Notes under the pieces: model-generated
The model's database searches: none
The model's input: the letters and a program-made list of their open reading frames with translations, nothing else
What the model was told of the DNA's origin: nothing
In this document: piece after piece, positions 22,821 through 42,574 of the stretch
Layout: each line of letters opens with the position of its first letter
How positions within the stretch are numbered: position 1 is the stretch's first letter
Position numbers and translations under genes: made by a program
NCBI RefSeq assembly: GCF_030644385.1
Contig: NZ_CP130060.1
Span: 1,736,001 to 1,800,000 of the forward strand
Length of the DNA: 64,000 bases
Origin: Stomatobaculum sp. F0698
Lineage (GTDB): Bacteria; Bacillota; Clostridia; Lachnospirales; Lachnospiraceae
Direction: 5' to 3'

Positions 22821-22872
22821 GTGCATCTCCCGCAGCAGTTGCCTAGGTGAATTCGCAATGTTCTTGCCCTCT

Positions 22873-23715: not shown

Positions 23716-23810
23716 GCTTTACCGTGCCTCTTTCCGAAGGATTGCTTATTCCCATACAAAGCTAACATCAGTCTTTGACACATATAATATATGCAAACGC
23801 TATCCGCATC

Positions 23811-24275: not shown

Positions 24276-24493
24276 AATCATCTCCCAAATTCAATACCAA
24301 ACAGCAAAACCTCAGGTCATCTCGCTTTGCCGGGCACGGGACAGGCAATGCGAATCAAAACTCTGTTTTCCGGTACACATCAAATCTTGTCAACGCCGAA
24401 AATACGGAACTGCTCAGCGTACCCGATTTCTCAGAAGCGGAATCTTTTGCAATATCTTTGTCGTCAACAAACTACAGAGAAAATCAGGGTAAA

Positions 24494-25907: not shown

Positions 25908-26648
25908 TCAGTCCAAAGCTGCCTGCTCAAAAGCCTTCACTTCTTCCGGCGTACCGAGCACGTGTACAGCCTCCTTCGGTACGCGGGAGATGTACACTTC
26001 TCCGCCCTGTTCAATCAGATAGTTATACATGGGCGCAATGTATTTTTCACCCTTTTCAAGGTTGCCCTCATTCGCGTAGAACTCATCATACAGTCTCTCA
26101 TAGAGAGCGCAGCTCTTGAAGTAATAGGCTCCCAAGGTGCAGTTCTCCGAGATTCTCTTCTTTTCTCGCACCTCAACCGCTTTTCCGGTCTCATCAAGGC
26201 GCACAAAACTCCAGTGATCTCCCTCGCCGAGGAAGCAGGGAATAAAACCGTCACCCTTTAATTCCGCCGCATTCATTGCGCCCGGCACCACATAAGTATC
26301 AATGTTATAGACGAGCAGGCCATGCTCCGGATTCCAGTATTGGGAGGCCAGCTTTGCGGTTGTCGCCTGTCCGTCGGTCAGATAGTCGAGCAACAAAAGC
26401 TTATAATCCGAAATGCCGAGCGCAGCGCATTGCTGCTCAATAAAGCCCTCAACATCCGCACTTTCGTCGCGCATCGCAATGAAAATATAACGCGCCGCGC
26501 ATTCGGCATAGCCCTGCAGACTTAGAATAGACCACTCAAATAAAGTCTTTCCGCGCGTCTCAATCATGAACTTCGGAACCGTATAGCCGGCCTTCCGGAA
26601 ACGAGACCCAAGTCCTCCCATTGTGATCACAATGTCCAGATTCTTCAT
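25908..26648 (-). CDS. Sugar-phosphate/small-molecule nucleotidyltransferase
   Basis: 246 residues with the nucleotidyltransferase Rossmann-like fold: N-terminal TMGGLGSRFRKAGYTVPKFM (nucleotide-binding loop and lysine) and a metal-binding aspartate in VYNIDTYVV. The sequence is unlike RfbA or RfbF and closer to the short NTases found with HAD and kinase genes in capsule loci. It overlaps the upstream HAD gene by four bases (ATGA) and is 26 bases from rfbG. It presumably activates a phosphorylated sugar or polyol; the substrate is unknown. Confidence 0.8.
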   Translation of the reverse strand: MKNLDIVITMGGLGSRFRKAGYTVPKFMIETRGKTLFEWSILSLQGYAECAARYIFIAMRDESADVEGFIEQQCAALGISDYKLLLLDYLTDGQATTAKLASQYWNPEHGLLVYNIDTYVVPGAMNAAELKGDGFIPCFLGEGDHWSFVRLDETGKAVEVREKKRISENCTLGAYYFKSCALYERLYDEFYANEGNLEKGEKYIAPMYNYLIEQGGEVYISRVPKEAVHVLGTPEEVKAFEQAALD

Positions 26649-27052
26649 CTCTCCTCCCCCTTTACACGCGATGCCTCACAGCGTTCTTCCAGTTCTTCCG
26701 GCGTATAGCCCAAAAACTCATCCGGCCTAACGGAACGGTCATCCACATAAAAGCCCTTGTGTCCCGGCCAGGGCTTTCCGTAGAAAATCTCGTCATAGGG
26801 GATGTTCCACTTCTCAAGCCAGTCGGTCAACACACGCGCCGTATTCTTATTGATCAATCCCAGATTTCCCTGATACGAGTTCATGTTGCGCGAGGTGAAG
26901 AGAACAATCTTTGCCCCGGCCTCGTGGTAGACACGCATTTTTTCCACCACCTCGGCAAAGGGTACGAGATCCTCATACTTCTCGCCCTTTTTCTTGATGG
27001 GGCAAATCGTGCCGTCTATATCAAAGACGAACGAATACTCACTGTAGTTCAT
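26645..27052 (-). CDS. Small HAD-superfamily phosphatase
   Basis: 135 residues. HAD motif I is FDIDGT, motif II FTSRN, and motif III/IV region GKPWPGHKGFYVDDRSVRPDEF. It is a C0-type minimal HAD without a large cap, so it likely acts on a small phosphorylated metabolite or a nucleotide-activated one. Start at ATG 27052 with GGAGGAG upstream. The first 14 bases overlap the end of the kinase-like gene, and its last bases overlap the nucleotidyltransferase, so the three are coupled. Confidence 0.88.
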   Translation of the reverse strand: MNYSEYSFVFDIDGTICPIKKKGEKYEDLVPFAEVVEKMRVYHEAGAKIVLFTSRNMNSYQGNLGLINKNTARVLTDWLEKWNIPYDEIFYGKPWPGHKGFYVDDRSVRPDEFLGYTPEELEERCEASRVKGEER

Positions 27053-28496
27053 TCCGAATCTCCTCCAAAATGTTCCTCGCATTCAGGATAAAGCCGAAGA
27101 CCTTATGCGGGTTGTCGATGTGCAGCGGCAACATCGAGAGAAAGAGCGAAGCCTCATAGAGACGAATCAGCAGATAGTGATATCCGGACGCTTCCGCTTT
27201 TTCCCGGAACCATTTTTTATACTGTGCATTGTCAAAGCCGAGCTTCAACTCTGCCTGAAACGCACGGTTAATAGAAATCTCATAAAGCGCGTTGTTGAAA
27301 AAATCGTAATTGCCGCAAATCGAATGACTAAGCTTTGCGAGATCGTAATACGGATTGGTCCAGAGTTCCTCTTCCGTGAGCGCGCCCTTCGGATCGATGA
27401 ACTTGAGCATTCTGGTCGCCTTGTTGTACATCGCATTTGCGAAGCAGGGATCGCCGTGGCCGATTACACTGACCGGCTCCATTCGAACACGCGACTCCAC
27501 CTGCTGTTTCAGTGCAAAGTAGCGCGCCTTAATATCGTCAATGCTCTCACCGGTACCGGCCTGTAAGAGCGCCGCAATGTGCCCGTAACTCTCGAGTTTC
27601 TTCAGGTCTTCAATACGACTCTCTACCTTTTCGATGTAAAGGGAATCTGCCGTTTTCTGATATTCTTCTTGGCTGACCGCCTTCGCATGACGCTCTTTGA
27701 AGAAGTTAAAGTACATGTCAAGCAGACGTCGAAACTCCTCCTCGCCGATCGAGCCGTGCACCCACTTAATCGCGAGGTCTGTCATATAGAGGCGCTCCAT
27801 CGTATAAGAGGCACTCTTTTCATCTTCTTGGTAGTTAAAGGGCAGAACAAACCACCTCTTCATGTCATCCGGCAAGAGATGATAGAAACTGTACTCTGCC
27901 TTAATCTTCTTCTTATTGGTGGAACGCTTGGTCAGCGTATATTCCTTTTCTTCAAGCGAATTAAAATAGCGCGCGTCAAAATTTCCCGTGATGCAGCGGA
28001 TAAAGTTAAAGACATCGCCGATATTGACAAGTCCGTCCGCCGGGAACGAATTTGAAACCGTTCGTCCGGCTGTCGCCGAACTTCCCTCTTTGCAAACACG
28101 CTCCAGAAATGTCCGATACGACTTTGTATCCGCGAACATTAAGCCTGCAGCCTCATCCCGTACAGTCATCCGGTAATTCTCTGCAATAAAGGGCAGTTTC
28201 TGAAACGAGAGTTTTGCCCACTCCGCATCGCTGATAATATAATTCGCAAACATATGTAGAATGTGAACCGGCTCCGCCGTCTGCTCTTCGAACTGCTCTA
28301 ATAACGCATTAAACGCAAAGACAGAGCGCACCACCTGCCACTCCATCTCCGGAAAATATGCCAGAAGCTGCTGCCGGAAGCGCTCTCCGAGGCGCTGCCG
28401 CTTGACAACCACCTCCGAAAAGCCCTTCTCACCGATCACATCCTCTATGACCTCGCTCTTCCGGACTGTGTCATCAAAGATTACGATAAGCTTCAT
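27039..28496 (-). CDS. APH/choline-kinase-like phosphotransferase with extra N-terminal domain
   Basis: About 485 residues. The C-terminal half holds the kinase-like catalytic motifs: VIGHGDPCFANAMYN (Brenner motif HGDxxxxN) near residue 370 and LKFIDPKG for the metal-binding aspartate. The N-terminal 130 residues (KLIVIFDDTVRKSEVIEDVI onward) look like a separate alpha/beta domain, possibly nucleotidyltransferase-like in shape, but without motifs I recognise. It probably phosphorylates a sugar or alcohol used by the HAD and nucleotidyltransferase neighbours. ATG 28496 has AAAGGAAC upstream; an ATG or alternative start further out is less likely. Confidence 0.75.
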   Translation of the reverse strand: MKLIVIFDDTVRKSEVIEDVIGEKGFSEVVVKRQRLGERFRQQLLAYFPEMEWQVVRSVFAFNALLEQFEEQTAEPVHILHMFANYIISDAEWAKLSFQKLPFIAENYRMTVRDEAAGLMFADTKSYRTFLERVCKEGSSATAGRTVSNSFPADGLVNIGDVFNFIRCITGNFDARYFNSLEEKEYTLTKRSTNKKKIKAEYSFYHLLPDDMKRWFVLPFNYQEDEKSASYTMERLYMTDLAIKWVHGSIGEEEFRRLLDMYFNFFKERHAKAVSQEEYQKTADSLYIEKVESRIEDLKKLESYGHIAALLQAGTGESIDDIKARYFALKQQVESRVRMEPVSVIGHGDPCFANAMYNKATRMLKFIDPKGALTEEELWTNPYYDLAKLSHSICGNYDFFNNALYEISINRAFQAELKLGFDNAQYKKWFREKAEASGYHYLLIRLYEASLFLSMLPLHIDNPHKVFGFILNARNILEEIRNELQ

Positions 28497-29343
28497 CTGC
28501 CCGTTCCTTTCTTCCCACAAAAATCAGCGCACCGAGATAAAAGAGCAGCAAGGACACCGTTCCGATTAAGATAATGCCGCTCAGATAATCGGTCTTTCCG
28601 CCCCACATCGCACCGAGCAAATAGGCCGACATTGCCCGTCCCAAATCCGCGCGCAGTATGGATGCGGTGAGTGCCAGCCCTCCGATTTCAATAAGCCAAG
28701 CAGCCACCGACAGCATATAGCTGAGTAAAAACTTTCCCTGTACCACCCGGTGAATGTCCCGGTATGCTGCCTGCAAACGCGCTAAAACAGTCAATGCAAA
28801 CAGCTTCCGCTTGCTGCCTCTCCCCGCAATCAAATAACGATTCCAGTACTGGCAGAGCCCCGGAAGCGCAAAATAGATAAAACTCAACGCAAACAGCACT
28901 GCAAGCAAGACAAAAGAAACCGCCGGCATCGCATTGCCAAGCGGCAATACAAATAAAATCAGCACCGTCATCAATGCCGCCGTATCCACAAAGCGGTCAA
29001 GAAGAATCACTGCAATGCCATACATCCAGTCACCGATATAGTAGCCATAGCAATAGCAGCGGAACAAATCTCCTGCCTTTAACGGCAATATCATGCTGAC
29101 CGGCGTAATTTTACAGTACTGCCTGAGGAAGAGTCCAAAGGGCAGTTTCCGATCCAATAACTCCAGATAGAGGCGAAAGGCCTTAATGGCATGCACCAGC
29201 ACCGCAGTTCCCAGCATGATTACAAAAATCAGCGGGCTGTGCAAGGCAAAGGAAAAATTCCTGTGCAGCAAGGCTCTGCTGAGGAGCAGCACGGTGAGCA
29301 GCAACACCAGGATATTGAGAAGTTTATACGTTTTCTGCTTCAT
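28474..29343 (-). CDS. Flippase-like membrane protein (UPF0104/LPG-synthase transmembrane family)
   Basis: 289 residues and seven to eight spans, with family-like segments VSMILPLKAGDLFRCYCYGYYIG and DRFVDTAALMTVLILFVLPLGN. The family resembles the flippase half of MprF and occurs beside GT2 enzymes making polyprenyl-phosphate sugars. Start at ATG 29343, giving a 20-base overlap with the end of the GT2 gene; its end overlaps the kinase-like gene by 23 bases. It likely moves a lipid-linked product across the membrane. Confidence 0.8.
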   Translation of the reverse strand: MKQKTYKLLNILVLLLTVLLLSRALLHRNFSFALHSPLIFVIMLGTAVLVHAIKAFRLYLELLDRKLPFGLFLRQYCKITPVSMILPLKAGDLFRCYCYGYYIGDWMYGIAVILLDRFVDTAALMTVLILFVLPLGNAMPAVSFVLLAVLFALSFIYFALPGLCQYWNRYLIAGRGSKRKLFALTVLARLQAAYRDIHRVVQGKFLLSYMLSVAAWLIEIGGLALTASILRADLGRAMSAYLLGAMWGGKTDYLSGIILIGTVSLLLFYLGALIFVGRKERADEAYRNL

Positions 29344-30157
29344 GGTCGCCGTTCTCTTTGTCCTTCCGATTCGTGTAAACCGTTTTCGCGGTATACGCGC
29401 CAATCAGTTTGTCTCTATGCTCCGCAGCAATAAAGCCCTTGCGGTTCACGATATAGCTTCCCAGAAGCTTCAGCACGACAATGGCCTGATTGACCATCTT
29501 GACATTCGAGACCTGATCGTCTTCTCTCCAAAGTATCGGGAAGAAGCGCATGTTCTGGCGGTAATAGGAAGAACCGAGAATCATGCAGTAATTGAACATG
29601 AGGTTATCCTTGTACTTCTCATAGAAACGGCTTTTGAGGCTCGAAACCTTGTACATGTTTAAGCCGGAACCAAGGTCATAGATGCGTCTCCCGGTACCGA
29701 TTGAGAACAAGAGATTATAAACCCGGTTTCCGAAGGTTCTGAAGGCCGAGTAGCCTTGCAGCTTGGATCCGCGCATGAAGCGAGCGCCGAGGAAGCAATC
29801 GTACTTTCGGTATACCCGACTCTGTAAGTGCGGCAGAATATTCGCAATATCTCCCTGGTCATCACCGTGCAGCACAATCACATAGTCAAACTCATGCTCC
29901 ATGGCATATTCAAATGCGACCTTGTGGGAACCTCCCAAGCCATAGTTATCATCATTTCTGAGCAAGGATACCGGAATGGGCAACGGGTGCTCTTCCAGAT
30001 AACGCATGGCCGCTTCCTCACCGTTATCCGTGCTCCGATTGTTCACGACAATAACCTCTGTTAATTCCCGGCAAACCTCCGGCTTCAACTGCCCCAGAAC
30101 ACGGACAATCTGCTTCTCGCAGTTATACATCGGGATAAACAAAAGAATTCTATTCAT
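29324..30157 (-). CDS. Family 2 glycosyltransferase
   Basis: 277 residues, GT-A fold: LLFIPMYNCEKQI at the start, VVNNRSTDNGEE, and the DxD-like HGDDQGD with YDLGSGLNMYK further on. No membrane spans at the C-terminus, so it is soluble or membrane-associated like polyprenyl-phosphate-sugar synthases (DPM1-like, SGLNMYK replacing the usual GFR). It overlaps the flippase-like gene, which suggests that the two make and translocate one glycolipid. Confidence 0.9.
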   Translation of the reverse strand: MNRILLFIPMYNCEKQIVRVLGQLKPEVCRELTEVIVVNNRSTDNGEEAAMRYLEEHPLPIPVSLLRNDDNYGLGGSHKVAFEYAMEHEFDYVIVLHGDDQGDIANILPHLQSRVYRKYDCFLGARFMRGSKLQGYSAFRTFGNRVYNLLFSIGTGRRIYDLGSGLNMYKVSSLKSRFYEKYKDNLMFNYCMILGSSYYRQNMRFFPILWREDDQVSNVKMVNQAIVVLKLLGSYIVNRKGFIAAEHRDKLIGAYTAKTVYTNRKDKENGDHEAENV

Positions 30158-30180: not shown

Positions 30181-31830
30181 TTATAGACTATAATCCACTG
30201 AGTAATCTTTTTGCGCTTTTTCTCTGAGTTTCCATTTTAGGATACCAAACACCAACACAACGTATCCCAACAGATAAAAAGATAGGACATACATAATCCA
30301 GTACGATGGCTCCGTAAGAAAAATAATCGGAAGCTTTAGAAGGACGGTTGCAAAAATCCCCGCCAAATACCACCTTTTTCTAATACATATCCCAATCCAG
30401 TCACAGATAAGAATCAACTCGGGAATAATAGAGTTCCATATTACTCGCTTTAGCACAACGGCAAATATATTGGCTTCACTAGTAATTCCAAGGGTCTCAA
30501 TAAATCTCGCCCTGAACCCCTTGAACACTGGTAAGTTGGCAAACCAACCTTTATTTAACACAGCCCTAACTGCTTGCTCATCATTATCTGCGTCAAATAA
30601 TCTTGCTGCAAATCCTGCATTGATTAAACTGTCTCCCGTTATTCCTGATGCTCTGATAAATAAACTCCATCTTTCTTTTAAAACCACATTAGGATACTTC
30701 AGAGAGAGTGCTACGAAGGCCTTACGGAACTCTTGATAATCCTTCGAATTATAATCATCATTTGGATTGTCATTATGGTTCCTAATACATGCGGTATTCC
30801 AATACATAGTTTCACCGTTTACTCCGGGATTATCCATAATGATTTTAATATCAGCGACCTTATCTATCGCTTCCAATTCTTTCGCATCTCTCACCGTGTC
30901 CGCGTGACGTACCACCTCAACACAAGGTCTCATTAAACTAATCACTTCATAGCTGGAATCTCCCAGTGCCCAATTCTGAAATCGTGTGATTCCCAGAAAC
31001 CCCATAATAATCAGTGAAATACATATAACCTTCTTCTGCTTCGAGATAACATCTTTTCTTACAAATAAAAGTAAAACACATGTCGCTGGTACATAGATGA
31101 AAGATTCAGTTCTCCAAGTGGAAATAATGCTACAGATGACTGAAAAAAGTAATACCTTCTTCCACCCCCACTTACTCTTTGTTTTATTCAAGCCAATCAG
31201 AATCACAAGCATTACCAATTCTAAGTACACATATATTCCCATTCGATATCCTGAAAACTGATACATCAATATCGGAGGAAGAAGAAATGGTAATAACTTA
31301 ATAACAATATCCAAGACAGGATTAGAAATAGCGGGGATTCCAAACACTTTTTCAATCTTTACGACTGAGAACGCAACACAAAGAGAAATGATTGTGTTCT
31401 GCAAAAATATTATTCCTCCGGGAAAAGGTAATATTTGCAACAACACATCTTGATACGCTCCAGTCAATATATTTTGCCATGGGCACCACATGCCATATGA
31501 AGAAATATCTGTTAAAGTCAGCAAATCATCATAAGCCCATGTCCCAGGCCAGAGAATTAGTAGCATAATCATCAAAATCGTAAAATAGGGCAAGAAAATA
31601 CTTACACCTCTTTTCCAATCCTTGTCATTCTGCTTTACTTTCTCATGCACCTCAAATATAAAGCACCAGATCAGGATCAAAAACACCAAATATAATATCT
31701 TTGTGAGCACAAAATAAAGCGTCTCCTGATCGTATGTAAAAAATGCTCTGTCCACTTGAAGTATTGTCGTAATAAACCACTGAACAACCGCAATGACTAG
31801 CGGATACTTAATACGATAACAATTACTCAT
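30181..31830 (-). CDS. Large polytopic membrane protein, DUF6020-like/GT-C-like (copy L3)
   Basis: 549 residues with about twelve spans. Shared with the next two large proteins: LLILWPGTWAYDD in the first external loop, LPFLLPPILMYQFSGYRMG, a VRDAKELEAIDKVADI segment in a large external region, KYPNVVLKERW, and a C-terminal SYWIMYVLSFYLLGYVVL. An acidic pair after a Trp in the first loop is where GT-C glycosyltransferases keep their catalytic acid, so a lipid-linked sugar transferase role is plausible. ATG 31830 is preferred (GAGGAAGG upstream); the frame extends to a TTG at 31881. The DNA is markedly AT-rich. Confidence 0.7.
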   Translation of the reverse strand: MSNCYRIKYPLVIAVVQWFITTILQVDRAFFTYDQETLYFVLTKILYLVFLILIWCFIFEVHEKVKQNDKDWKRGVSIFLPYFTILMIMLLILWPGTWAYDDLLTLTDISSYGMWCPWQNILTGAYQDVLLQILPFPGGIIFLQNTIISLCVAFSVVKIEKVFGIPAISNPVLDIVIKLLPFLLPPILMYQFSGYRMGIYVYLELVMLVILIGLNKTKSKWGWKKVLLFSVICSIISTWRTESFIYVPATCVLLLFVRKDVISKQKKVICISLIIMGFLGITRFQNWALGDSSYEVISLMRPCVEVVRHADTVRDAKELEAIDKVADIKIIMDNPGVNGETMYWNTACIRNHNDNPNDDYNSKDYQEFRKAFVALSLKYPNVVLKERWSLFIRASGITGDSLINAGFAARLFDADNDEQAVRAVLNKGWFANLPVFKGFRARFIETLGITSEANIFAVVLKRVIWNSIIPELILICDWIGICIRKRWYLAGIFATVLLKLPIIFLTEPSYWIMYVLSFYLLGYVVLVFGILKWKLREKAQKDYSVDYSL

Positions 31831-31873
31831 TTCCTTCCTCAGCATGCTTGTTCTGTATGTGTTCCTTATAACA

Positions 31874-33502
31874 TTACACAATGTTCTTCATTGTTCTGCC
31901 CTTGTTAAGCAGCATGACTATTCCAGCAGAAAGAAGCATATAACCAACAACATATTGCGGGAGATAATACATAAACAGAGAACCTGACTCGGCAGCAAAT
32001 ATAATTACAGTCTTTGCTAAGAAAAACCCTGTAATCAAAAACATTATCCACTTTTTTCGCAGTATCGCAAACAAAAATGCGATAAGGATAAAAATCGTAG
32101 GAATTACACCATTCCAGAAGACATAAAACAAGGGTTCCGGTATCGTATCAGGTTTTTGCTGCCCCAACAGATAAATAAAGTTCTTACGAGTCTCCGGAAA
32201 CACAGGTCTTATACCCGAATGTTTTGTTGCTCTCCAGGCCTCGTACCACTCATTTTGTCCTATGTCCATAAGATGCACTGCATAGCTTATACTGGAGACC
32301 TGTACAGTAGAACCACGTAGTCCGATTGCTCCTGCAAATCTGTCTGAGCGTTCCTTCCAGAGAACATGCGGATACTTAAACGCTAACTGTACCATTCCAT
32401 CCATATAGTCATCATACATTTCTTTCGAGATATCTATCTCATAGATTCTCTCTTGATCCCACACATAATAACCATCCGCATTTGGATTCTCTTTTAGTAT
32501 CTCCGGATGAATGATTGGGGCCATCTTTCGGATTTCTTCTTGGTCGCGAACCGGATCTGCTGCTTTCATTAACTCAACCGCCGGAAGTATCGAGGAACGA
32601 ATCAAGTAATAATAGCTACTTCCCATATAGGCTTTTTCCACATGGTGAATTGAGCCAAAGACCATAATACAAAGCACGATTGCTACCATGCGCTCCGGTA
32701 TCGTGTTCTTAGTCAACGCGACAATTGCGATTATCCCGAGAATCATATAGATGATGTTCTCACTTCTCCATTCGGAGATCACTCCGATCATGATTGCAAA
32801 TGCAATCATGCCTGCTCGTTTGCATTGTCTTTGCTTCAAGAACTTCGCAACCAATACAACCGCCAAAACCTCCAAATATATCAACAATCCTGTTCGATAT
32901 CCACCGAATTGATAAATCACGACCGGAGGAAGCAAAAACGGGAAAAGTTTCACAACAATATCAGCGATTGGATTAGTAAGTCTCTTTAACCCAAGGTCTT
33001 CTTCTGCAATCACCAGTATGGTAGGGAGACAAAAAGCAATGATTACATTTTGTATGAAAATAATCCCCCCGGGAAACGGAAGAATATGTGCACAACAAAT
33101 ATAAAATAAACTCGTAAAAATATGCTGCCATGCATTTAAGCGATAAGCTTTTGTAAAAAGAAGCGTTGAAACATCATCCCAGGCCCAAGTTCCGGGCCAA
33201 AGAATAAGGAGCAATATCATCTGAATTGAAAAATACACTGCAAATATTTTTGCTCCTCTGATCCATCTCTTATCTCCGGATCTGATTTTCAGAACAGCAT
33301 GTGCCAGAAACGACCAAAACGCACACAGCATTCCAAGCGAGCAGAAGCGAGTCGCCCATACAATTCCTGCAGGCAGTTCCGGTGTTTCCGTAAAAAACAT
33401 CTTGTCTGCACCGCTCAGGGTTAAGAACAACCATTGAGCTACTCCTATCCCAGCGGCTAGCAGTAGCATCAAACCATCCTCTTGCTTACTTTTCATCTCC
33501 AT
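31874..33502 (-). CDS. Large polytopic membrane protein, DUF6020-like/GT-C-like (copy L2)
   Basis: 542 residues, paralogue of the neighbour below with the same layout: LLILWPGTWAWDDVSTLLFT, ILPFPGGIIFIQNVIIAF (nearly identical to L3), LPPVVIYQFGGYRTG, WRSENI, KAADPVRDQEEIRKM, KYPHVLWKERSD and FMYYLPQYVVGYMLL. GGGGGG lies upstream of ATG 33502. It is 55 bases downstream of a small secreted-protein gene. AT-rich. The glycosyltransferase function is inferred from topology and the loop motif only. Confidence 0.72.
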   Translation of the reverse strand: MEMKSKQEDGLMLLLAAGIGVAQWLFLTLSGADKMFFTETPELPAGIVWATRFCSLGMLCAFWSFLAHAVLKIRSGDKRWIRGAKIFAVYFSIQMILLLILWPGTWAWDDVSTLLFTKAYRLNAWQHIFTSLFYICCAHILPFPGGIIFIQNVIIAFCLPTILVIAEEDLGLKRLTNPIADIVVKLFPFLLPPVVIYQFGGYRTGLLIYLEVLAVVLVAKFLKQRQCKRAGMIAFAIMIGVISEWRSENIIYMILGIIAIVALTKNTIPERMVAIVLCIMVFGSIHHVEKAYMGSSYYYLIRSSILPAVELMKAADPVRDQEEIRKMAPIIHPEILKENPNADGYYVWDQERIYEIDISKEMYDDYMDGMVQLAFKYPHVLWKERSDRFAGAIGLRGSTVQVSSISYAVHLMDIGQNEWYEAWRATKHSGIRPVFPETRKNFIYLLGQQKPDTIPEPLFYVFWNGVIPTIFILIAFLFAILRKKWIMFLITGFFLAKTVIIFAAESGSLFMYYLPQYVVGYMLLSAGIVMLLNKGRTMKNIV

Positions 33503-33557
33503 GATTCTTACCCCCCTTTGTAGACACCCCTCGTAGGAAAGACACCATCTTTGCTAA

Positions 33558-33944
33558 TTAATCTTTCCTTCTAAAACGCATAAAACTCATCAAAATTGAG
33601 AATAGTACCGCTGCATATAACATTCCGTTAATCGGAGTAAATATCGCTCGCGTATCATCATGCTCACGGTATTCTTGGCCGTTCACAACAAATTTGCCAT
33701 TCACGTAAATTCCGCCGTACCTATCCACAACAACGGAGGCTTTCCCGGTCTCGTTTAAAATCTGCACCCCCCTACCGCTCTCGCCGGGAGTAATAACAAT
33801 CCACTCATCACCACTATCGTTTCCATCGGACTCTTGTTCGATTCGAACACTCCCCGCACTACCAAAGTCCTGCACAGTTGCGGCATGAGCCGGAGTTGCC
33901 ACAAGCATTCCAGCCAACAAGCCGATTACCAAACCTTTTTTCAT
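33558..33944 (-). CDS. Small secreted, C-terminally membrane-anchored protein (copy S2)
   Basis: 128 residues. Signal peptide with cleavage after AHA (residues 1-22 or so), an external domain of about 80 residues, one C-terminal span (MLYAAVLFSILMSFM) and a basic end FRRKD. It is clearly a paralogue of S1 1.7 kb upstream: WIVITPGESGRGVQI, VVVDRYGGIYVNGKF, VNGQEY and FTPINGMLYAAV. The short strand-rich GG/NG repeats suggest a small beta-fold. I do not recognise a known family. It precedes L2 as S1 precedes L1. Start at ATG 33944; longer frames have no signal-peptide logic. Confidence 0.8.
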   Translation of the reverse strand: MKKGLVIGLLAGMLVATPAHAATVQDFGSAGSVRIEQESDGNDSGDEWIVITPGESGRGVQILNETGKASVVVDRYGGIYVNGKFVVNGQEYREHDDTRAIFTPINGMLYAAVLFSILMSFMRFRRKD

Positions 33945-34030
33945 TGTTTGTCTTTCCTTCCAATTTTGTCTCAACTCTATAGTATCCGTTATTTTCATGC
34001 CTCATGGGTTTTCCTGTACTTAAAATAGAA

Positions 34031-35590
34031 TCACGGCAAGTCTGATTCGCTTCTTTTGGGAACGTGGCAATATAAATAGAGGAAGTACCATCCTCCCAAA
34101 TAATTTGCGAAATAGTACATCGCATATTTCACCGGCGCTGTTAAGATAATGCAGATAAGTTCAATTAACAAGACGAGGAGAACCAGCGAAAAATCGAAAC
34201 GTCGCTCCCATAGAGATACCAAGAATAACTCTGCGGTCAATACAATCGGAATCCATAATGCCCAAAACACAAAATTTATGTTTATTCCGAATACAGTGAA
34301 CTGTCCCCCCAGAAATTTCGATACTCTATTACGTAGCCCTGAATTCAATGTCTTAACCTTCAGCGGCGAAATGTCGACATCCCAGTCCTTCAAATTTTCC
34401 GCATTCACATTTTCTGTCGTCTGCAGATACCCTGCTTCGCTATCAAAGCCTACGGAAATCACAAATTCATTCCAACGGCAGCGCAAAAAATCTTGCGGGT
34501 AGCTCATGATCAGCTTTGTACTGCTCCGCAAAAACCGAGTCATGTCCCTCTCTGTATAGTTCGTTCTCGGTTTTACCAGCGTATAAGCCCGGTTTGTCTT
34601 GGTCATGATATCTTCTATCGCATAGACCTTATCGATTGCCTCCACTTCCTCCCGATGTTCTTCCCAGTTAAACTTCGGATCCTGAAATATAGTATAAATC
34701 GGCATAATGAAACTGAGGGCAACCGGCGAATCTCCTCCTGCAAAGCTTCTCTCGCAGACTGAATAACCCGTAATGCTCAACAGCATAATCATCATTGCCG
34801 TCAGTACAGGCTTTACAAACGTACGCTTTCTCTTCAACAAGAGAGCAGCCAACATGAACGGATAAAAAACAAGCAAGAATTTAATCTCCGTTCGTATACA
34901 CACAAGTCCACTGACCAACAAATTAAGCCACAGAATCTCTCGTCGAAATTCTATCTTTTCCCCACAATTCCAAAGTACCAGATAACGCTGGAGAAACAGG
35001 ATAAGCAGAATTCCAAAAAGGAAAGTCCTCATAGGCTGGTACAGATAGTACAATGAAACCGGACTAAACAGCAGTACTGATATAAAACGAGCTTTTCTGC
35101 CTGTTATGACTCTACATTGCTGAATCAAATCTGCATAAATCCATGAGGCCAGCGCACATTGAAATAACACAATCGAACCTCGATGGAAGAAAAACATCAG
35201 TGCCACAATATGGATAGCAGTTGCAAACAGTCCTTGATTGTAATGAACTTTTAAAACAAGTGCAGAGTGCTTCAAAATACTGAATTCGTCGACTTCCACC
35301 CAATTACCGGGCCAAAGCAGAAGCAGCCCCACAAGAAGTACCGCGAAAATCAACAATGCCAAGCGAAACTTATCTTCTATTCGCTTCTTCCGCAAAGCAG
35401 TTATTGCCTGTCCCAAAAATAGGTACAGCAAAAAAAGCTGCACTAATTTACACACTGCATATAACAGGTATGAACTTCTCTCCGAAAAGTTAAAATGCTG
35501 CCAATCGAAATATAGCGAGAAAGGCAAATAAACCAACAGAACCGCTAAACGAACAAGATCTGTTTTTGAAAGCCTCTTCCATCCCATCAT
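34031..35590 (-). CDS. Large polytopic membrane protein, DUF6020-like/GT-C-like (copy L1)
   Basis: 519 residues, about twelve spans. It is the most diverged of the three but keeps LLLLWPGNWVEVDEFSIL, YQPMRTFLFGIL, the charged EEVEAIDKVYAIEDI segment that aligns with EAIDKVADIKII of L3, SYPQDFLRCRWNEF and the C-terminal YAMYYFANYLGGWYFL. It lies 25 bases downstream of the small secreted protein S1. AT-rich compared with the HAD gene upstream. Probably an extracytoplasmic glycosyl- or other group-transferase. Confidence 0.7.
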   Translation of the reverse strand: MMGWKRLSKTDLVRLAVLLVYLPFSLYFDWQHFNFSERSSYLLYAVCKLVQLFLLYLFLGQAITALRKKRIEDKFRLALLIFAVLLVGLLLLWPGNWVEVDEFSILKHSALVLKVHYNQGLFATAIHIVALMFFFHRGSIVLFQCALASWIYADLIQQCRVITGRKARFISVLLFSPVSLYYLYQPMRTFLFGILLILFLQRYLVLWNCGEKIEFRREILWLNLLVSGLVCIRTEIKFLLVFYPFMLAALLLKRKRTFVKPVLTAMMIMLLSITGYSVCERSFAGGDSPVALSFIMPIYTIFQDPKFNWEEHREEVEAIDKVYAIEDIMTKTNRAYTLVKPRTNYTERDMTRFLRSSTKLIMSYPQDFLRCRWNEFVISVGFDSEAGYLQTTENVNAENLKDWDVDISPLKVKTLNSGLRNRVSKFLGGQFTVFGININFVFWALWIPIVLTAELFLVSLWERRFDFSLVLLVLLIELICIILTAPVKYAMYYFANYLGGWYFLYLYCHVPKRSESDLP

Positions 35591-35615
35591 TCCCCACCGA
35601 AAGACAAAAATTCTG

Positions 35616-36002
35616 TCATCCTTTCTTTGAGAACCGAATCAGATTCAGCAAAAGAGAAAATATCACCGCCGCATACAGAAAGCCGTTAATCGGCGTAAAA
35701 ACAGCCTTCATGCTGTCATCTTCCTTGTACTCTTTGCCGTTCACATAGAGCTTGCCGTCCACGTAGACACCGCCGTAGCGGTCCACGGAGACCACAGCCT
35801 TGCCGTTCTCATCGACAATCTTGACGCCTCTGCCGCTCTCGCCCGGGCTCACGACAATCCAGTCATCGCTCCCGCCGTTGTCATTCGGCTGCTGCTGCAC
35901 GCTGACATTTCCCGCCGTGCCGAAATCCTGTACTTCCGCTGCGTATGCAGGCGTCGCCGCGAGCGTCGCCAGCAAGAATGCCATTGCTATTTTCTTCTTC
36001 AT
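35616..36002 (-). CDS. Small secreted, C-terminally membrane-anchored protein (copy S1)
   Basis: 128 residues, the same length as S2. Signal peptide cleaved after AYA (about residue 22), external domain with WIVVSPGESGRGVKI, VVSVDRYGGVYVDGKLYVNG and FTPINGFLYAAV running into the anchor span, then basic RFSKKG. GAGGGAGAG precedes the ATG. It begins 9 bases after the HAD gene and 25 bases before L1. Its DNA is GC-rich like the core locus, unlike S2, so S2 may have drifted or arrived separately. Function unknown. Confidence 0.8.
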   Translation of the reverse strand: MKKKIAMAFLLATLAATPAYAAEVQDFGTAGNVSVQQQPNDNGGSDDWIVVSPGESGRGVKIVDENGKAVVSVDRYGGVYVDGKLYVNGKEYKEDDSMKAVFTPINGFLYAAVIFSLLLNLIRFSKKG

Positions 36003-36011
36003 AGCTCTCCC

Positions 36012-37952
36012 TCAGTAATATTGTTCCAAAATGCGGTTGTACATACCGATCAGCGGATACAGCCGGTACTTGGTGAGATAGCCCTGCGGCCAGGTTGTGT
36101 CGCGGAGAAAGTCCTTGAATTCCTGCCGCTTCTTTTTACTGACCAGCGCAAGCGCCATTAAGACCGGGCGGAAGCGTGTGCTCCGGTCCACATAGCTGCC
36201 AACACCGAACTCCTCGTTGTGGCGCAGCGCAAAGTAGGCATTCACGGTCTCCCGCTTCGGCTCGTAGATGAAGCGCTTTAAAGACTCCCAGGCGAGCGGA
36301 CGGAGTTCAAACTCGGTCACAAGCTGATTTTCGCAGTAAATGCACAGCGCCGCGCAGGTTTCGATAATGTGTTTTTGCAGTGCTTTTGTGTAAGAGAAGA
36401 AGATGGCATCCTCCTCCTGCTCGCAGTTTCGAAGTGCCACGATTTTCCCATCCTTCGCGCTATAGCCGACGGTGCTGCCGTTCGGCGAATTGCATATCAT
36501 CTCAAAGGGCGTGGAAACCGTCATGAGTGCCCGTGCCGAGCGGAAGGCGTCAATGTAACCGCGCTTTTCCGCGTTCTCGGGCTGCTCGTTCAGGAAGGGA
36601 ATCAAGCCGATATAGAAGCCCAGCATCTTGGTCTTCGGGAAGAGGTGACAGAGGTTATCCTGAATGGTGCCCCTCCAGCCGATGTCCACAATCGCAATTT
36701 CCTCTTCCGCGCCGCATAAATCCCGCTCCGCGCAGTAGGAAAGCAGAAGCGCACGCTTTTCGTCCCGCTCCGCTTCCATGCACTCTAAAAAAGCCTGATC
36801 CGCAAAGAGCGCCTGTACTCTTTCATCCTGCCAGGGATAGGTGATCACCTCTTCCGCCGGAATTTCATGCTTTTGAAGGAACTCCCGCACAGACTCCAAA
36901 TCCACGCCGAGCGAGGTGAAGAGCGCCTGCATGGACTGCACGGAATACTGGTTCCAGAGCCGCATGAGTTCCTTTGTGCTGATTTCGCGGAGTGAGGGCA
37001 TGAAGGTCGCAAGGCGGCTCACCTCAAGGAGATAGGACTTCGGGTAGGCGCGCTTTGAGACTGCGGCCATCGCGTCGTAAATCTCCTTGTAGAACTCGCC
37101 CTCGCGCGTAAAGAAGTAAATTTTCTTGATGTCCCTTGCCCTTACCTCTTCCGCGAGGTTCCGGACAAAGCCGTAGAAGAAGAGGCTCACATCATCGCTG
37201 CCGCTGAGCGGCGCGCCCGGGTACTGCAGCGGCTTTTTCGTGTCTCCGACAAAGTTCCGCTCCCGCTCCTCTCTTCTTTTGTGCTCCTCCGCGGGCAGAT
37301 AGCGCTCTGCCGCAATGCCGAGCCGCTTCGGGACTTCCGCATCGCTGTAGGCATTGTCTCCGAGGTGCATGTGCTCCGCCGGTGTGACGCCGAGCAGCTT
37401 CTCTGCCTCCTCAAAAAGGCGTCCCGAGCGCTTATTGACGCGAAAATCGCAGGACACCAGCACCCGCTCCAAGGGCTTCGAAAAACCCGCCGCCTCAATT
37501 AACTCCCGAAGGAATGCTTCGCCCGCATAAAAATCCGAAATACAGACCAGTCTCTTGTGGGGAATGCTGTCAATCTTTGCCTCAATGCCGGGATCCAGGT
37601 AGATGTGCCGCTTCTCTGCGGCGAGTTCCTCCGCCACGAGGCGCTCGGTCAGCGCGCTCAGTTCTTCCTCGGGATGGGTCTCAAGAAACGCGCGCACCAA
37701 TACTTCGCGGAAAACCGCGTGAATCTCGTACTCATCGTCAAAGCCCTGCGCAGTGCTCTGCTGCCCCAAATCACGCTCTACCGTCTGGCGCAGACGAAAC
37801 AGCGCCCTTGCACTCCGGTACTCCTCCTTGAGTAAGTCCCCGCGCTGCTCCAAAAGTGCGGCCGCGGTCTCCACCTTGATGGCATCCGGATGGCAATCTC
37901 TCCGCAAGATGGTATCCCAGATATCCAGTGATATGAGCTCATAGCTTTGCAT
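36012..37952 (-). CDS. HAD-like hydrolase with large C-terminal domain
   Basis: 646 residues. The N-terminal 230 residues form a HAD domain: motif I SLDIWDTIL, motif II VCISDFYAG, motif III lysine in RVNKRSG and motif IV LGDNAYSDAEVP. The remaining 400 residues (GFVRNLAEEV, KIYFFTREGEFYKEIYDAM, then AIVDIGWRGTIQDNL) are a conserved unit often fused to HAD in surface polysaccharide loci, whose activity is not known to me. No signal or spans, so cytosolic. The downstream S1 gene follows after 9 bases. Confidence 0.8.
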   Translation of the reverse strand: MQSYELISLDIWDTILRRDCHPDAIKVETAAALLEQRGDLLKEEYRSARALFRLRQTVERDLGQQSTAQGFDDEYEIHAVFREVLVRAFLETHPEEELSALTERLVAEELAAEKRHIYLDPGIEAKIDSIPHKRLVCISDFYAGEAFLRELIEAAGFSKPLERVLVSCDFRVNKRSGRLFEEAEKLLGVTPAEHMHLGDNAYSDAEVPKRLGIAAERYLPAEEHKRREERERNFVGDTKKPLQYPGAPLSGSDDVSLFFYGFVRNLAEEVRARDIKKIYFFTREGEFYKEIYDAMAAVSKRAYPKSYLLEVSRLATFMPSLREISTKELMRLWNQYSVQSMQALFTSLGVDLESVREFLQKHEIPAEEVITYPWQDERVQALFADQAFLECMEAERDEKRALLLSYCAERDLCGAEEEIAIVDIGWRGTIQDNLCHLFPKTKMLGFYIGLIPFLNEQPENAEKRGYIDAFRSARALMTVSTPFEMICNSPNGSTVGYSAKDGKIVALRNCEQEEDAIFFSYTKALQKHIIETCAALCIYCENQLVTEFELRPLAWESLKRFIYEPKRETVNAYFALRHNEEFGVGSYVDRSTRFRPVLMALALVSKKKRQEFKDFLRDTTWPQGYLTKYRLYPLIGMYNRILEQYY

Positions 37953-37975: not shown

Positions 37976-39193
37976 TTACAGTCCCCGCAGCTTATACCAG
38001 AGCTTGCGGAGCAGTTTGCTCTTACGAATAAAGCCGACCCGCTTGAGGCGCCCGAAGAGCGAATTATCAACGATGACCGGCGGTGCATAGCTCTGCTCCG
38101 CAAGTTTCTCGTCCATGACCACATCCGCCGAGACGGCAGGGCGCGTATAGCTTCTGTCGTAAACCGCGGGCTCTGCCGGTTCCCGGCGCGCCGCCATGTC
38201 GCTGACCGCCGCATAGAACTGCTCAAAGCCGTACTCCAGATCCTTATCCGCCATGTAGCGCTTGCCCGCCTCGGACATTTGGGCCGCTTGTTCCGGGTGA
38301 TCTAAAATCTCAATCAAAGCCTGGGCAATCGACTCCGGCGTGGTGTGCGCGAGGCGCACGCCCTCGTTCGGCATGTCGAAGAAGTTATTTTCCATGTAGA
38401 GATCCACGACCGGCAGACCGGCCGCCATCATCTCAAAGGGAATGCGCGAGGGGTTCGAAGAGCTGATGCAGAGTCCCACCTCGCACTTATTGTAAAGCGC
38501 ATTGCACTTTTCAAGCGGGATGATGCCCAGGTTCTCGTGTTCAAACCAGACATTCCCCTTGATGTTCGAGCCGTAGAGATAGATTTTCACATCCGGGCGC
38601 AGGAACTTCACAATGCCGAGCGCCTCAATGCCGAGCACACTGCAGCGGCGCGGCTTATCGGGCTGATAGACAAAGCAGATGGCGTGTTCCTTCTTTGCTT
38701 CCGGCAGCGGACGGTAGATGCGCCGGTCGGCGCAGAAATCGAAATAGCGGGAAGGCGTGTGGTACTCTGTCTGCATCTTGTGCGAAAGCCAACGGCCTAT
38801 GGTGACCGGTTTTAAGCCGTAGCCGTAGGAATTGCAGGCGAGAATGTAGCCGTCGCCCATGGGGTTAAAGAGCGCCTCAAAGTCCTGAATGAAGTAGGCT
38901 TTTACAGCCTTACTGTTGCAGTCCCGCACCACCTTGGCCGTAAACCAGGCAGTCGCGAAGATGATGTCGTACTCTCCCTGAATGTCGTAGCCCAGAATAA
39001 AGCGGCAGTCGTGCTTTCCGAAGAGGGTCTCTGCCTGGCGGCGGAGTTCCTCGGAATTCTTGACTTCTCCCTTATCTTCCACATAGACATCGCACTCATA
39101 ACCCTTGCGAATCAAGTATTGCACGTTCTGGAGTATGGTTCTGTGTCCCCCGGAGCCCTCGATCAGCGACGGCAGTACCCACGCAGCTCTCAT
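37976..39193 (-). CDS. WsaF-like glycosyltransferase (rhamnosyltransferase type)
   Basis: 405 residues, GT-B fold. The N-terminal LPSLIEGSGGHRTI and KAYFIQDFEALFNPMGD, and the C-terminal nucleotide-binding region GLCISSSNPSRIPFEMMAAG LPVVDLY (given in two parts), resemble WsaF, a dTDP-rhamnose beta-1,2-rhamnosyltransferase. This fits with rfbC at 19 kb. Its ATG overlaps the stop of the methyltransferase gene by four bases. A 70-residue polar region follows the conserved end. Confidence 0.85.
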   Translation of the reverse strand: MRAAWVLPSLIEGSGGHRTILQNVQYLIRKGYECDVYVEDKGEVKNSEELRRQAETLFGKHDCRFILGYDIQGEYDIIFATAWFTAKVVRDCNSKAVKAYFIQDFEALFNPMGDGYILACNSYGYGLKPVTIGRWLSHKMQTEYHTPSRYFDFCADRRIYRPLPEAKKEHAICFVYQPDKPRRCSVLGIEALGIVKFLRPDVKIYLYGSNIKGNVWFEHENLGIIPLEKCNALYNKCEVGLCISSSNPSRIPFEMMAAGLPVVDLYMENNFFDMPNEGVRLAHTTPESIAQALIEILDHPEQAAQMSEAGKRYMADKDLEYGFEQFYAAVSDMAARREPAEPAVYDRSYTRPAVSADVVMDEKLAEQSYAPPVIVDNSLFGRLKRVGFIRKSKLLRKLWYKLRGL

Positions 39194-40437
39194 TTTTTCT
39201 CCCCGTACTTTCTCCGAAACTCAAGACGCGACATCCAATGCCGCTTGATCATTGCCTCATACTCCGCATTCTGCTGCTGCAGGGTAAGAATGATATTGCC
39301 CTGCTGCTGCACAATGCCGAGTCTCTCCTCCGCAATCTTGTGTGCCTCGTTTAAGCTGCGGTCGCGCTCGTCGATTAGCTTTGCCTGCGCCTCAATGGCC
39401 GCATCCTTTTCAGCGACCAATTTTTCGTCCGCCGCAATCCGCGCATCTCGCTCGTCTATCATCTTAGATTGATTTGCAATCGCCGCATCCTTCTCGGCGA
39501 CCAGCTTCTCATCCGCCGCAATCCGCGCATCCCGCTCATCGATCATCTTGGTCTGGCTCGCAATGGTTGCATCGCGCTCCTCAATGAGCTTGGTCTGGCT
39601 TGCAATCGCTGCATCCTTCTCGGCGACCAATCTTTCATCCGCCGCAATCCGCGCATCCCGCTCATCAATCATCTTCGACTGCTGCTCAATCGCGCGGTAG
39701 CGTTCCTCGTAAAGGCCCTTCAACTCGTCAAAGCGCGCCTGCGTGTACTTGTACTTGGAGCGGTAGAAGTAGAGGTCCTTATAGTACTTGAAAAAGCCCG
39801 CTGCCTCGAGTCTGTCATACCAGTAGCGTCCCTTCGGGAAGAGGATGCCGAGGCCGCAGCTGTGCGTAAAGTCAAAGTAGCAGTCGTACTCCTTCTTGGT
39901 CTTTTCCCAGTGGTCGCAGGAGCCCTGGTCGATCGGGCTGTACACATCGTGGAAGAGGACGATGCCGTTCTCCTTTAGCTTGGGCAGCCAGGTCGTAAAG
40001 TCGTGCTCCACGTCCTCAAAGGTGTGTCCGCCGTCGATGTGCAGAATGTCGATTGAATTGTCCGCAAAGTTCGGGCGCGCATCGTCAAAGCACATCTGGA
40101 AGAGGTGCAGGTTTACCTCCGGATAATAGGTCGCGGCGGTCTTCTGCACGAGTGCATAGACTTCCTCGCCGGTAATTTCCGCGCCGATATCGCCGCTCCA
40201 CATATCCACTGCATTGATTTCGGTATTCAGCTTAAAATCTCGCACGGCCTGACAGAAGCTAAAGAGCGAGCAGCCGTACTGACTGCCGAGTTCCACCAGA
40301 CGCTCCGGCCGCACAAACTGCAATAAATCATAGGCAAAATCCCGATGCCCTTCCCAGTAGGCAAATTTAAGCTTCGGGTTTAACTGATCTGCGTCATATC
40401 GCGGGTCTGAGACGACCCAGTCGGTTTCATGGTTCAT
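39190..40437 (-). CDS. SAM-dependent methyltransferase with long repeat-built coiled coil
   Basis: 415 residues. Residues 1-230 are a class I methyltransferase: RLVELGSQYGCSLFSF (SAM-binding glycine loop), INAVDMWSGD, ILHIDGGHTFEDVEHDF and GIVLFHDVYSP. Residues 240-400 are a continuous heptad coiled coil made of 28-residue units beginning MIDERDARIAADE at residues 256, 298 and 326, with a 14-residue half unit between the first two. It overlaps wzt by 11 bases and the WsaF-like gene by four. In E. coli O9a, WbdD joins a terminating methyltransferase to a coiled-coil ruler that sets chain length; this protein has that layout without the WbdD kinase. The analogy is inference. Confidence 0.85.
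   Translation of the reverse strand: MNHETDWVVSDPRYDADQLNPKLKFAYWEGHRDFAYDLLQFVRPERLVELGSQYGCSLFSFCQAVRDFKLNTEINAVDMWSGDIGAEITGEEVYALVQKTAATYYPEVNLHLFQMCFDDARPNFADNSIDILHIDGGHTFEDVEHDFTTWLPKLKENGIVLFHDVYSPIDQGSCDHWEKTKKEYDCYFDFTHSCGLGILFPKGRYWYDRLEAAGFFKYYKDLYFYRSKYKYTQARFDELKGLYEERYRAIEQQSKMIDERDARIAADERLVAEKDAAIASQTKLIEERDATIASQTKMIDERDARIAADEKLVAEKDAAIANQSKMIDERDARIAADEKLVAEKDAAIEAQAKLIDERDRSLNEAHKIAEERLGIVQQQGNIILTLQQQNAEYEAMIKRHWMSRLEFRRKYGEKK
39381..39680. repeat. 84-bp in-frame repeats encoding coiled-coil units
   Basis: Three imperfect 84-bp units and a 42-bp half unit within the methyltransferase gene. Shared plus-strand blocks include GCCGCAATCCGCGCATC and GCATCCTTCTCGGCGACCA. All are multiples of 21 bases, so copy-number change keeps the heptad register. 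Confidence 0.85.
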
Positions 40438-41770
40438 GCTCTATCCTCTCGATTTTGAATTCTTCAATCACGTGGTTGATGATGCCGTGCATGGGCTTTA
40501 AGGCGATTGCCTGCACGTGCAACACGCTGTGCACCCAACACTGCACGGTATGCACCATCTGGTCATAACCCTCGCCTATGCCGAGGGTCAGGAAATAATC
40601 GCCCTCCTTGACTTCAGGCCAATGGAAGGAAAGAGAAGCTTTTCTCACTTCACCCTGCTTTACACCCTCTATCATAATATTCTCGCCGAGGGTGCTCTGC
40701 GCAAAAATACTGTTTCCGTACTTATCCTTAAAAGTATAGCCGATTATGATATTGTCTGCATCTTTTTTCGCGTGCAGTAAAAGCTCGATCCGCACCGCAT
40801 CGCCCGGCTTTACAACATCCACCGCCTCGCCGTTAATCAGCATGCGACAGCGATCGATTAAAATATCCTGCGCACCGCCTATGCTCTCCTTCGGCGCATC
40901 GACCCAGCCGATTTCCGCCTTTTCTTTTTCGCGGGCCGCGGCCTCCAAAGCGAGTGCTTCCGCCTCTGCCTCTGTGGCAGCGTTTAAGCGCGCATCCTCA
41001 TCCTTCGCGGCAGCCTCCTCGCTCTGAAATACGCTCGTGTGGAGCAGCTTTAAATAATCCTCAATGACCTCGAGCGGCTTACCCTCGCGGATTATTTTTC
41101 CGCGATCGATTAAAATCACGCGATCCGCCATATTCGCGATGCTGTTCATGTCGTGGGTCACAAGGAGCTTGGTGACGCCCTTCATCTCCTCCTTCATGAA
41201 GGTATTGCACTTCTGCTGGAAGAAGATATCGCCGACCGAAAGCGCCTCATCGACAATCAGAATTTCCGGTTTGAAGCTAATCATGACCGCAAAGGCGAGA
41301 CGGGCAAACATACCGCTCGAATAGGTCTTGACCGGCTGTCCCATGTACTCGCCGATGTCCGCGAAGTCCACGATTTCCTTGACTTTCTCCTGCATCTCCT
41401 CGTCGGAGAAGCCGCGCATGGAGCCGTTCAGGAAGATGTTCTCATAGCCCGTGTACTCCGGATTAAAACCGGTGCCGAGCTCGAGCAGAGCGGAAATTTC
41501 GCCATGTGTCTCTATGCTGCCCTCGCTCGGCGTGATGACACCGGTGATGAGCTTTAAGAGCGTCGACTTGCCCGCACCGTTCCGCCCGATGATACCCAGG
41601 GTCTCTCCCTTCTTCACCGTGAAGGAAACCTGATCCAAGGCTTTATAGAGCGTGTGATATTTTTTCTTGGTGAGCGAGAACAGTTCCTTGACCCTGTCCT
41701 GCGGTCTCTCGTAGAGGTTATAGAACTTGCTTACGCCTCTCACTTCAATGGCATTTTCGTTTTGATTCAT
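40427..41770 (-). CDS. wzt: Polysaccharide ABC exporter, ATP-binding protein with carbohydrate-binding C-domain
   Basis: 447 residues. Residues 1-245 are the ATPase: Walker A IIGRNGAGKSTLL, signature TYSSGMFARLAFA, Walker B ILIVDEALSVGD and LVTHDM. An Ala/Glu-rich linker (about 255-290) leads to a beta-sandwich of the Wzt C-terminal type (QDILIDRCRML, GDAVRIELLL, GYTFKDKYGNSIF, GDYFLTLGIG). In the O9a system that domain recognises the capped chain end, coupling termination to export. It follows wzm by 9 bases and overlaps the methyltransferase gene. Confidence 0.95.
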   Translation of the reverse strand: MNQNENAIEVRGVSKFYNLYERPQDRVKELFSLTKKKYHTLYKALDQVSFTVKKGETLGIIGRNGAGKSTLLKLITGVITPSEGSIETHGEISALLELGTGFNPEYTGYENIFLNGSMRGFSDEEMQEKVKEIVDFADIGEYMGQPVKTYSSGMFARLAFAVMISFKPEILIVDEALSVGDIFFQQKCNTFMKEEMKGVTKLLVTHDMNSIANMADRVILIDRGKIIREGKPLEVIEDYLKLLHTSVFQSEEAAAKDEDARLNAATEAEAEALALEAAAREKEKAEIGWVDAPKESIGGAQDILIDRCRMLINGEAVDVVKPGDAVRIELLLHAKKDADNIIIGYTFKDKYGNSIFAQSTLGENIMIEGVKQGEVRKASLSFHWPEVKEGDYFLTLGIGEGYDQMVHTVQCWVHSVLHVQAIALKPMHGIINHVIEEFKIERIEHEP

Positions 41771-41779
41771 CGCTTATCC

Positions 41780-42574
41780 TCAGAGCACGTCTGCAAAGTA
41801 CGGTTTTAATTTCCGGAAGGTGTACATACCGAGCGCAAAAATCGCGCCTGTGACCGCCCAGAAGTAGAGCGTATAAAGGGGCTTGGTCCAGAAGGGGATG
41901 TGCGCATAGAGCGAATCCCGGTAGCCCTCAACCAGGTAATAAACCGGGTTCAGCTGAAAAATAAGACGCAGCTTGCCGCTCAGCACCTCCGGGCCCCATA
42001 CAATCGGAATGGCCCAGAAACCGATCTGGATGAAGATGCCCACCAGCTGACTAGCATCCCGCATGTAGACCGTGACCGAAGAAGTAAAGAGCACCACGGC
42101 GAAGACCAGCATGAAGTTACAGAAAATATAATAGGCGAGTTGCAAATAGTACCAGTCCGCCGTAAAGCCCGAAAAGTTCAGGATGACGGTCACAATGCCG
42201 AGAAAGATGCCGTGAATGATCAGCGAGGTGCCTACCTTCACGAGCGGAATGAGCCCCACGTTGAAGTTCAGTTTTTTCACGAGATAGGAGTACTCGAGAA
42301 AGGCATTGGTGCCCGCGCCGAGCGCATCCGAAAAGAAAAACCAGGCCACAATACCGGATATCATCCAGATGATATAGGGGGTGCCGTCCGGGCGCTCGCC
42401 GTTCCGCAAGCCGACGGTAAAGACAAACCAGTAAATGAGTACCGTGATGAGCGGCTGCACAATGCCCCAGACCACGCCGAGGTAGGAGCCGCTGTACCGC
42501 GCCTTGAAGTCGTTCTTTATGAGCTTCCCGATCATCTTTTTATCTTTTTGAAAAAAAACGCGAAGTCTGTTCAT
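41780..42574 (-). CDS. wzm: Polysaccharide ABC exporter, permease
   Basis: 264 residues, six spans, ABC-2 type. The N-terminal LIKNDFKARYSGSYLGVVWG is the conserved amphipathic coupling region of Wzm/TagG proteins, and VYMRDASQLVGIFIQIGFWA and PVYYLVEGYRDSLY are typical of the C-terminal half. It overlaps the upstream glycosyltransferase by four bases. With Wzt it would export an undecaprenyl-diphosphate-linked polymer. Confidence 0.95.
   Translation of the reverse strand: MNRLRVFFQKDKKMIGKLIKNDFKARYSGSYLGVVWGIVQPLITVLIYWFVFTVGLRNGERPDGTPYIIWMISGIVAWFFFSDALGAGTNAFLEYSYLVKKLNFNVGLIPLVKVGTSLIIHGIFLGIVTVILNFSGFTADWYYLQLAYYIFCNFMLVFAVVLFTSSVTVYMRDASQLVGIFIQIGFWAIPIVWGPEVLSGKLRLIFQLNPVYYLVEGYRDSLYAHIPFWTKPLYTLYFWAVTGAIFALGMYTFRKLKPYFADVL

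Follow-up and report, generated by a model that had tools for sequence, protein, structure and literature searches.

A 64,000-nucleotide stretch of the genome of Stomatobaculum sp. F0698 (contig NZ_CP130060.1; hereafter the window) carries a minus-strand row of five genes, S1-L1-S2-L2-L3, in which S denotes a small anchored protein and L a large polytopic protein of the glycosyltransferase C (GT-C) type. We find that the L proteins probably add sugars to an exported surface polysaccharide, and that S occurs beside L as well as in a genome where no L was detected. We put at about even the chance that our full explanation holds, namely that L1 to L3 and their neighbours form a polymer-decorating set to which S is an accessory. 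GT-C enzymes of the L kind are already known, whereas S is without a known family. A preliminary description, made from the letters of the window, had reported five open reading frames (ORFs) in the order S-L, S-L-L on one strand; all five are present at the coordinates it gave (Table 1) and the order is confirmed, with intergenic gaps of 25, 86, 55 and 43 nt that contain no terminator-like sites. It had also placed them in a surface polysaccharide locus, rightly so in view of the ABC-2 permease, the Wzt with its Wzt_C domain, and the glycosyltransferase and sugar-nucleotide genes. None of the five products could be assigned significantly to a family in Pfam or NCBIfam.

Predicted GT-C fold and distribution of the L proteins

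GT-C transferases carry a catalytic acid in their first external loop. Foldseek on its own left the fold of L unsettled; a structure model of L2 shows a GT-C fold across residues ~70 to 541, together with two extra N-terminal helices, and in the fold comparison a PMT entry ranks first, with ALG12 within 1 Z unit of it and Emb and ArnT within about 3. Residue D109, which lies between the model helices 78-101 and 108-118, is invariant in all 41 aligned L proteins and is likely to be external and catalytic. L2 resembles PMT, ALG12, Emb, ArnT and STT3 in fold and in the invariant acid of the first external loop, and differs from them in its two additional helices and, as do L1 and L3, in having no assigned family. 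Its activity is predicted from the fold. The earlier assignment of L to GT-C therefore stands for L2, the one protein modelled, and for the family by way of the invariant acid. Furthermore, the LWPGxW loop with its acid, pointed out in the same description, was found in L1, L2 and L3; the MYxxxxY.xGY end ascribed to all three is present in L2 and L3 but not in L1, which reads MYYFANYLGGW. The L2 model contains no strand-rich domain. An L profile gave 0 matches to PDB sequences, and Pfam searches with 22 L proteins returned scattered weak matches, with DUF2142 in two. L2 and L3 are 34% identical (E 4e-94), L1 and L2 just 19% (E 1e-6), and L1 belongs to a different clade from L2 and L3 within one family tree.

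Relatives of L, with the own genome counted, were found in 2 of 7 genus genomes (L1 query), in 17 of 299 family genomes (L2 query) and in at least 24 of 392 order genomes (A2 query), the last being a lower bound because, for most genomes, scoring covered three candidates. L is thus a recurrent GT-C group, of which the three members in the window fall outside existing Pfam and NCBIfam models. Regions were fetched for 20 of the 34 family matches and 14 of the 35 order matches, the stronger ones for the most part; the remainder were family matches at E 4.3e-7 or weaker, except those of genomes G271 and G222, and order matches from 1.3e-12 on. Together with L008, the locus of the sister species Lachnospiraceae bacterium ACC2 (which we take to be the strain named Stomatobaculum longum), these regions comprise 35 loci with 38 L ORFs. 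Nine of the 35 (L008, L041-L045, L048, L104 and L105) hold at least four of the five window neighbours that were scored, namely the GT2, the LPG_synthase_TM-type protein (LPG-type for short), APH, HAD and nucleotidyltransferase proteins, as raw counts without a background control.

Three further observations were made at individual loci. In L041 (5654-8869) and L049 (5972-9100) an L is joined to a domain read as GT2-like, in a polypeptide of >1,000 residues. One L clade (L047, L051, L054 and L055, four genomes) lies opposite a gene row recognised by eye as rpmF-plsX-acpP-rnc-smc, a setting that differs from polysaccharide loci. At L145 (12855-14996), an odd fusion of 713 aa has matches to 60KD_IMP (YidC-like insertase, E 1.2e-34) as well as to CDP-glycerol glycerophosphotransferase (E 3.8e-6).

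Proposed donor supply and comparison with the sister species

The GT2 protein of the window matches PF00535 above the cut-off and resembles ArnC (E 3e-4) and DPMS (5mlz, E 1.5e-3); it has no transmembrane (TM) segment. In the LPG_synthase_TM-type family, PF03706 is matched at E <= 0.1 by 9 of 11 aligned members, the window's own protein being unmatched. Having these two genes beside L agrees with the arrangement reviewed in the passages of PMC8035078, in which a GT-A donor maker and a flippase work with a GT-C transferase, the last represented here by the predicted fold of L2. In this scheme, L would move a sugar from polyprenyl phosphate to the exported polymer. The evidence for such a donor is the neighbourhood, and the GT2 would most likely make it; it may then cross the membrane through the LPG-type protein or, alternatively, the GtrA-type protein. 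Among titles and abstract starts in a literature search, nothing linked LPG_synthase_TM proteins to donor flipping. The window resembles GtlA-GtcA-GtlB and GacI-GacK-GacL, multi-component systems that glycosylate Gram-positive cell-wall polymers across the membrane (described in the same passages), in its GT2 donor-maker candidate, membrane flippase candidate, predicted GT-C transferase and ABC-exported polymer. In contrast, its candidate flippase is of LPG_synthase_TM type, it has three L genes, and it adds S, which has no counterpart in those passages. Likewise, in the ORF12/GT136 pentofuranose system (passages of PMC11127046) a GT-C enzyme decorates an exported glycan after polymerisation.

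The ACC2 locus reads S-L1-acyltransferase-L2, followed by the same GT2 as in the window. For ten flanking genes, protein identity between the two species is 87-98%, and the GC content at third codon positions (GC3) is 0.58-0.76 in both. S1 is 95% identical to the ACC2 S and has a backbone-like GC3 of 0.69; in contrast, identity falls to 70% for L1 (GC3 0.47) and 40% for L2 (GC3 0.42), while S2 and L3 (GC3 0.39) have no direct ACC2 counterpart. The ACC2 acyltransferase is likewise low in GC3 (0.38). By these measures S1 looks like backbone, whereas S2, by its GC3, looks like part of an exchanged island. Against this, the S of a third genome, G312 (see below), has a GC content (0.35) closer to that of the acyltransferase gene there (0.38) than to that of the HAD gene (0.42). 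We propose that the conserved export block is followed by a slot whose decorators (GT-C enzyme, acyltransferase, sulfatase-like enzyme) are exchanged between lineages, exchange being the presumed cause of the island's divergence, and that S may be the small membrane-tethered accessory of this slot.

The S protein and its possible role

S1 and S2 are 58% identical (BLASTP E 2e-60) and, as first described, have PGESGRGV, VDRYGG, VNG and FTPING.LYAAV in common; across four S proteins, two stretches are the most strongly conserved, VDxYGGxYxxGxxxVNGxEY and, where the anchor starts, FxPxNGxLY. S1 and S2 each have one C-terminal TM segment, and hydropathy gives a hydrophobic N-terminal start in both and in the S of genome G312 (see below). 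The signal peptide is based on reading of the sequence and a hydropathy rule rather than on a dedicated predictor. By our reading, the S domain would lie outside the membrane on a single anchor. None of the four S has an LPXTG ahead of the C-terminal hydrophobic stretch, where F(T/S)P(I/E)NG stands instead. Against families of carbohydrate-binding modules (CBM) and lectins, just RicinB_lectin_2 was hit, in one of the four members and below the cut-off (E 0.049), and the predicted structure model of S was of poor quality. Between S1 and S2, the proportion of nonsynonymous differences (pN) is 0.24 and that of synonymous differences (pS) 0.80, the synonymous sites being saturated. This suggests selection on S across their joint history, a measure to which recent decay of S2 would be invisible. 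Among titles and abstract starts, we found no published description of S.

By sequence searches, S is rare in searchable genomes. Of 61 genomes searched, two carry it, one of them the own genome, and a contig scan of genomes gave one locus, L008. A third S (E 5.7e-19, three-row S profile) lies in G312, the one genome of its genus. A profile search of the family listed 22 of 299 genomes at E <= 0.1, with the own genome (G000), G005 and G312 clear; G120 (2.3e-4), G099 and G162 were examined and rejected as carriers, and the other 16, all at E >= 0.01, were left unread. Searched against the class, the S1 sequence by itself hit 5 of 391 genomes at E <= 1e-3. Besides the own genome these comprised four weak matches (2.9e-5 to 8.2e-4), which on reading of the frames we judged to be chance: one is an antisense frame inside a longer gene, and the others are longer proteins, of 188 to 479 residues, that lack the PGE/VDxYGG/VNG set. 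In the order, a four-row S profile matched 1 of 279 genomes, the own one; plasmids, phages and viral contigs gave no match.

G312 keeps the order Wzm-Wzt-methyltransferase-WsaF-HAD protein-S, but its genes 3′ of S differ from those of the window: an acyltransferase, 42% identical to that of the ACC2 locus, and then a protein whose sulfatase match falls narrowly short of the cut-off. No L was found in G312 by a query whose sole control was its match to G000, and with the genome 95% complete this absence is not proof; one of the three S-bearing genomes is thus without a detected L. Conversely, the four-row S profile found S in 1 of the 35 fetched L loci, that of the sister species. The fetched stretches around the closest relatives of L3 (L039 of genome G115, 51% identical, L102 and L103) contain no S. 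A hydropathy scan of the 35 loci for small co-directional S-like ORFs within 3 kb of L gave, besides the S of L008, one candidate, at L054, which was rejected because it overlaps an opposite-strand gene. Upstream of L, the loci L039, L040, L103 and L106 encode single-TM proteins; these were rejected as analogues of S, having 210 to 401 residues and being missed by the S profile.

These data bear on the preliminary suggestion of a two-component system in which S serves L as a dedicated partner or adaptor. An L does lie directly 3′ of three of the four S copies, and S2 and L2 are alike in island composition, as if moved together. However, L without S is the rule, the S of G312 has no detected L, and the L proteins encoded after S come from two distant clades. 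L therefore seems able to do without S, and S without L; dedication is unsupported, and we consider it improbable. Our first guess, which is tentative, is that S is a tethered acceptor-holder, whose likeliest job would be to keep hold of the exported polymer or present it, or else to position decorators of several classes next to it. The direct evidence on its role consists of topology and conservation. The guess draws on the polymer-binding domains that the GT-C enzymes ORF12, EmbA-C and AftD carry themselves (passages of PMC11127046), on the lack of a strand-rich domain in the L2 model, and on the proposal, listed as open in the passages of PMC8035078, that recognition and binding of the acceptor polymer may, in the case of small GT-C enzymes, depend on a separate protein. 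Where ORF12 has a built-in CBM, S would hypothetically act in trans. Level with this guess, and just as doubtful, stands the reading that S belongs to the export block (Wzm, Wzt, methyltransferase, WsaF, HAD-like) and merely borders the decorators, S2 being the passenger of a foreign segment that recombined at the S gene. The backbone-like S1 and the gene order of G312, with quite different genes after S, agree with it. On the other hand, S2 is open, diverged from S1 and low in pN/pS despite the presence of S1, and stretches with relatives of WsaF and HAD (G201) or of HAD (G271) hold no S.

Two other roles are far less likely. L could glycosylate S itself, a secreted protein that would then be the acceptor, in a PMT-like manner, as the first rank of PMT in the fold comparison might suggest; but the closeness of ALG12, Emb and ArnT in that comparison, an external domain that is not Ser/Thr-rich, and an N-V-S site of S1 that by eye is missing from S2 make this very improbable. 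More improbable still is a role of S as activator of the GT2, like that of GacJ towards GacI and of WpsB towards WpsA (passages of PMC8035078 and PMC10821137). These too are small membrane proteins in a similar pathway, but they act with the donor-making GT2 and are unlike S in topology: GacJ has three TM helices (passages of PMC8035078), S a single one besides its hydrophobic start, with its domain read as outside, while the GT2, having no TM segment, is expected inside. Returning to the acceptor-holder guess, S might found a family of membrane-tethered subunits that stand alone, recognise the acceptor and serve several unrelated extracytoplasmic decorators (GT-C, acyltransferase-3, sulfatase-fold transferase), and so be the second protein supposed by Rismondo et al. 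2021, although we think this unlikely. S nevertheless offers a concrete, small and genetically simple candidate beside GT-C enzymes for a separate acceptor-recognition protein, and because it is linked with other decorator classes as well, the question of acceptor recognition becomes testable.

Further genes of the locus

Table 1. Genes of the surface polysaccharide locus, in window coordinates
Feature	Coordinates	Strand	Remarks
S1	35616..36002	-	128 aa; signal-peptide-like start, ~75-residue external domain (by reading), C-terminal TM anchor, short basic tail
L1	34031..35590	-	519 aa, polytopic, GT-C-type; WPGNWVEVDE loop
S2	33558..33944	-	second S; island-like GC3 0.45
L2	31874..33502	-	542 aa, GT-C fold (modelled); WPGTWAWDD loop
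L3	30181..31830	-	549 aa, GT-C-type; alternative TTG start at 31881 gives 566 aa
GT2	29324..30157	-	resembles polyprenyl-phosphate-sugar synthases; candidate donor maker
LPG_synthase_TM-type protein	28474..29343	-	polytopic; candidate donor flippase
APH-like phosphotransferase	27039..28520	-	weak match, below cut-off; recurrent L neighbour
HAD phosphatase, EcbF/BcbF-like	26645..27082	-	128 bits vs cut-off 162
Nucleotidyltransferase-like protein	25908..26648	-	weak match
HAD-like protein	36012..37952	-	646 aa; matches below cut-offs; directly upstream of S1, 9 nt gap
WsaF-like glycosyltransferase	37976..39193	-	
Methyltransferase	39190..40437	-	repeat-rich tail
Wzt	40427..41770	-	ABC ATPase with Wzt_C domain
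Wzm	41780..42574	-	ABC-2 permease
GtrA-type protein	23811..24281		alternative candidate donor flippase

The repeat-rich tail of the methyltransferase is coil-like, with 42/84-nt repeats, and the protein measures 415 aa in the window, 457 aa in L008 and 528 aa in L145; its position beside a Wzt with a Wzt_C domain brings to mind the WbdD chain-length ruler. Farther along, positions 20949-24281 encode a family-less 654 aa polytopic protein, a UbiA protein closely resembling decaprenyl-phosphate phosphoribosyltransferase (198.9 bits vs a cut-off of 207) and the GtrA protein, possibly a second decoration system of pentofuranose type. A 12-nt repeat in 6.4 copies (20993-21069) encodes a stretch of the (DHPI)n type close to the C-terminal end of the 654 aa protein.
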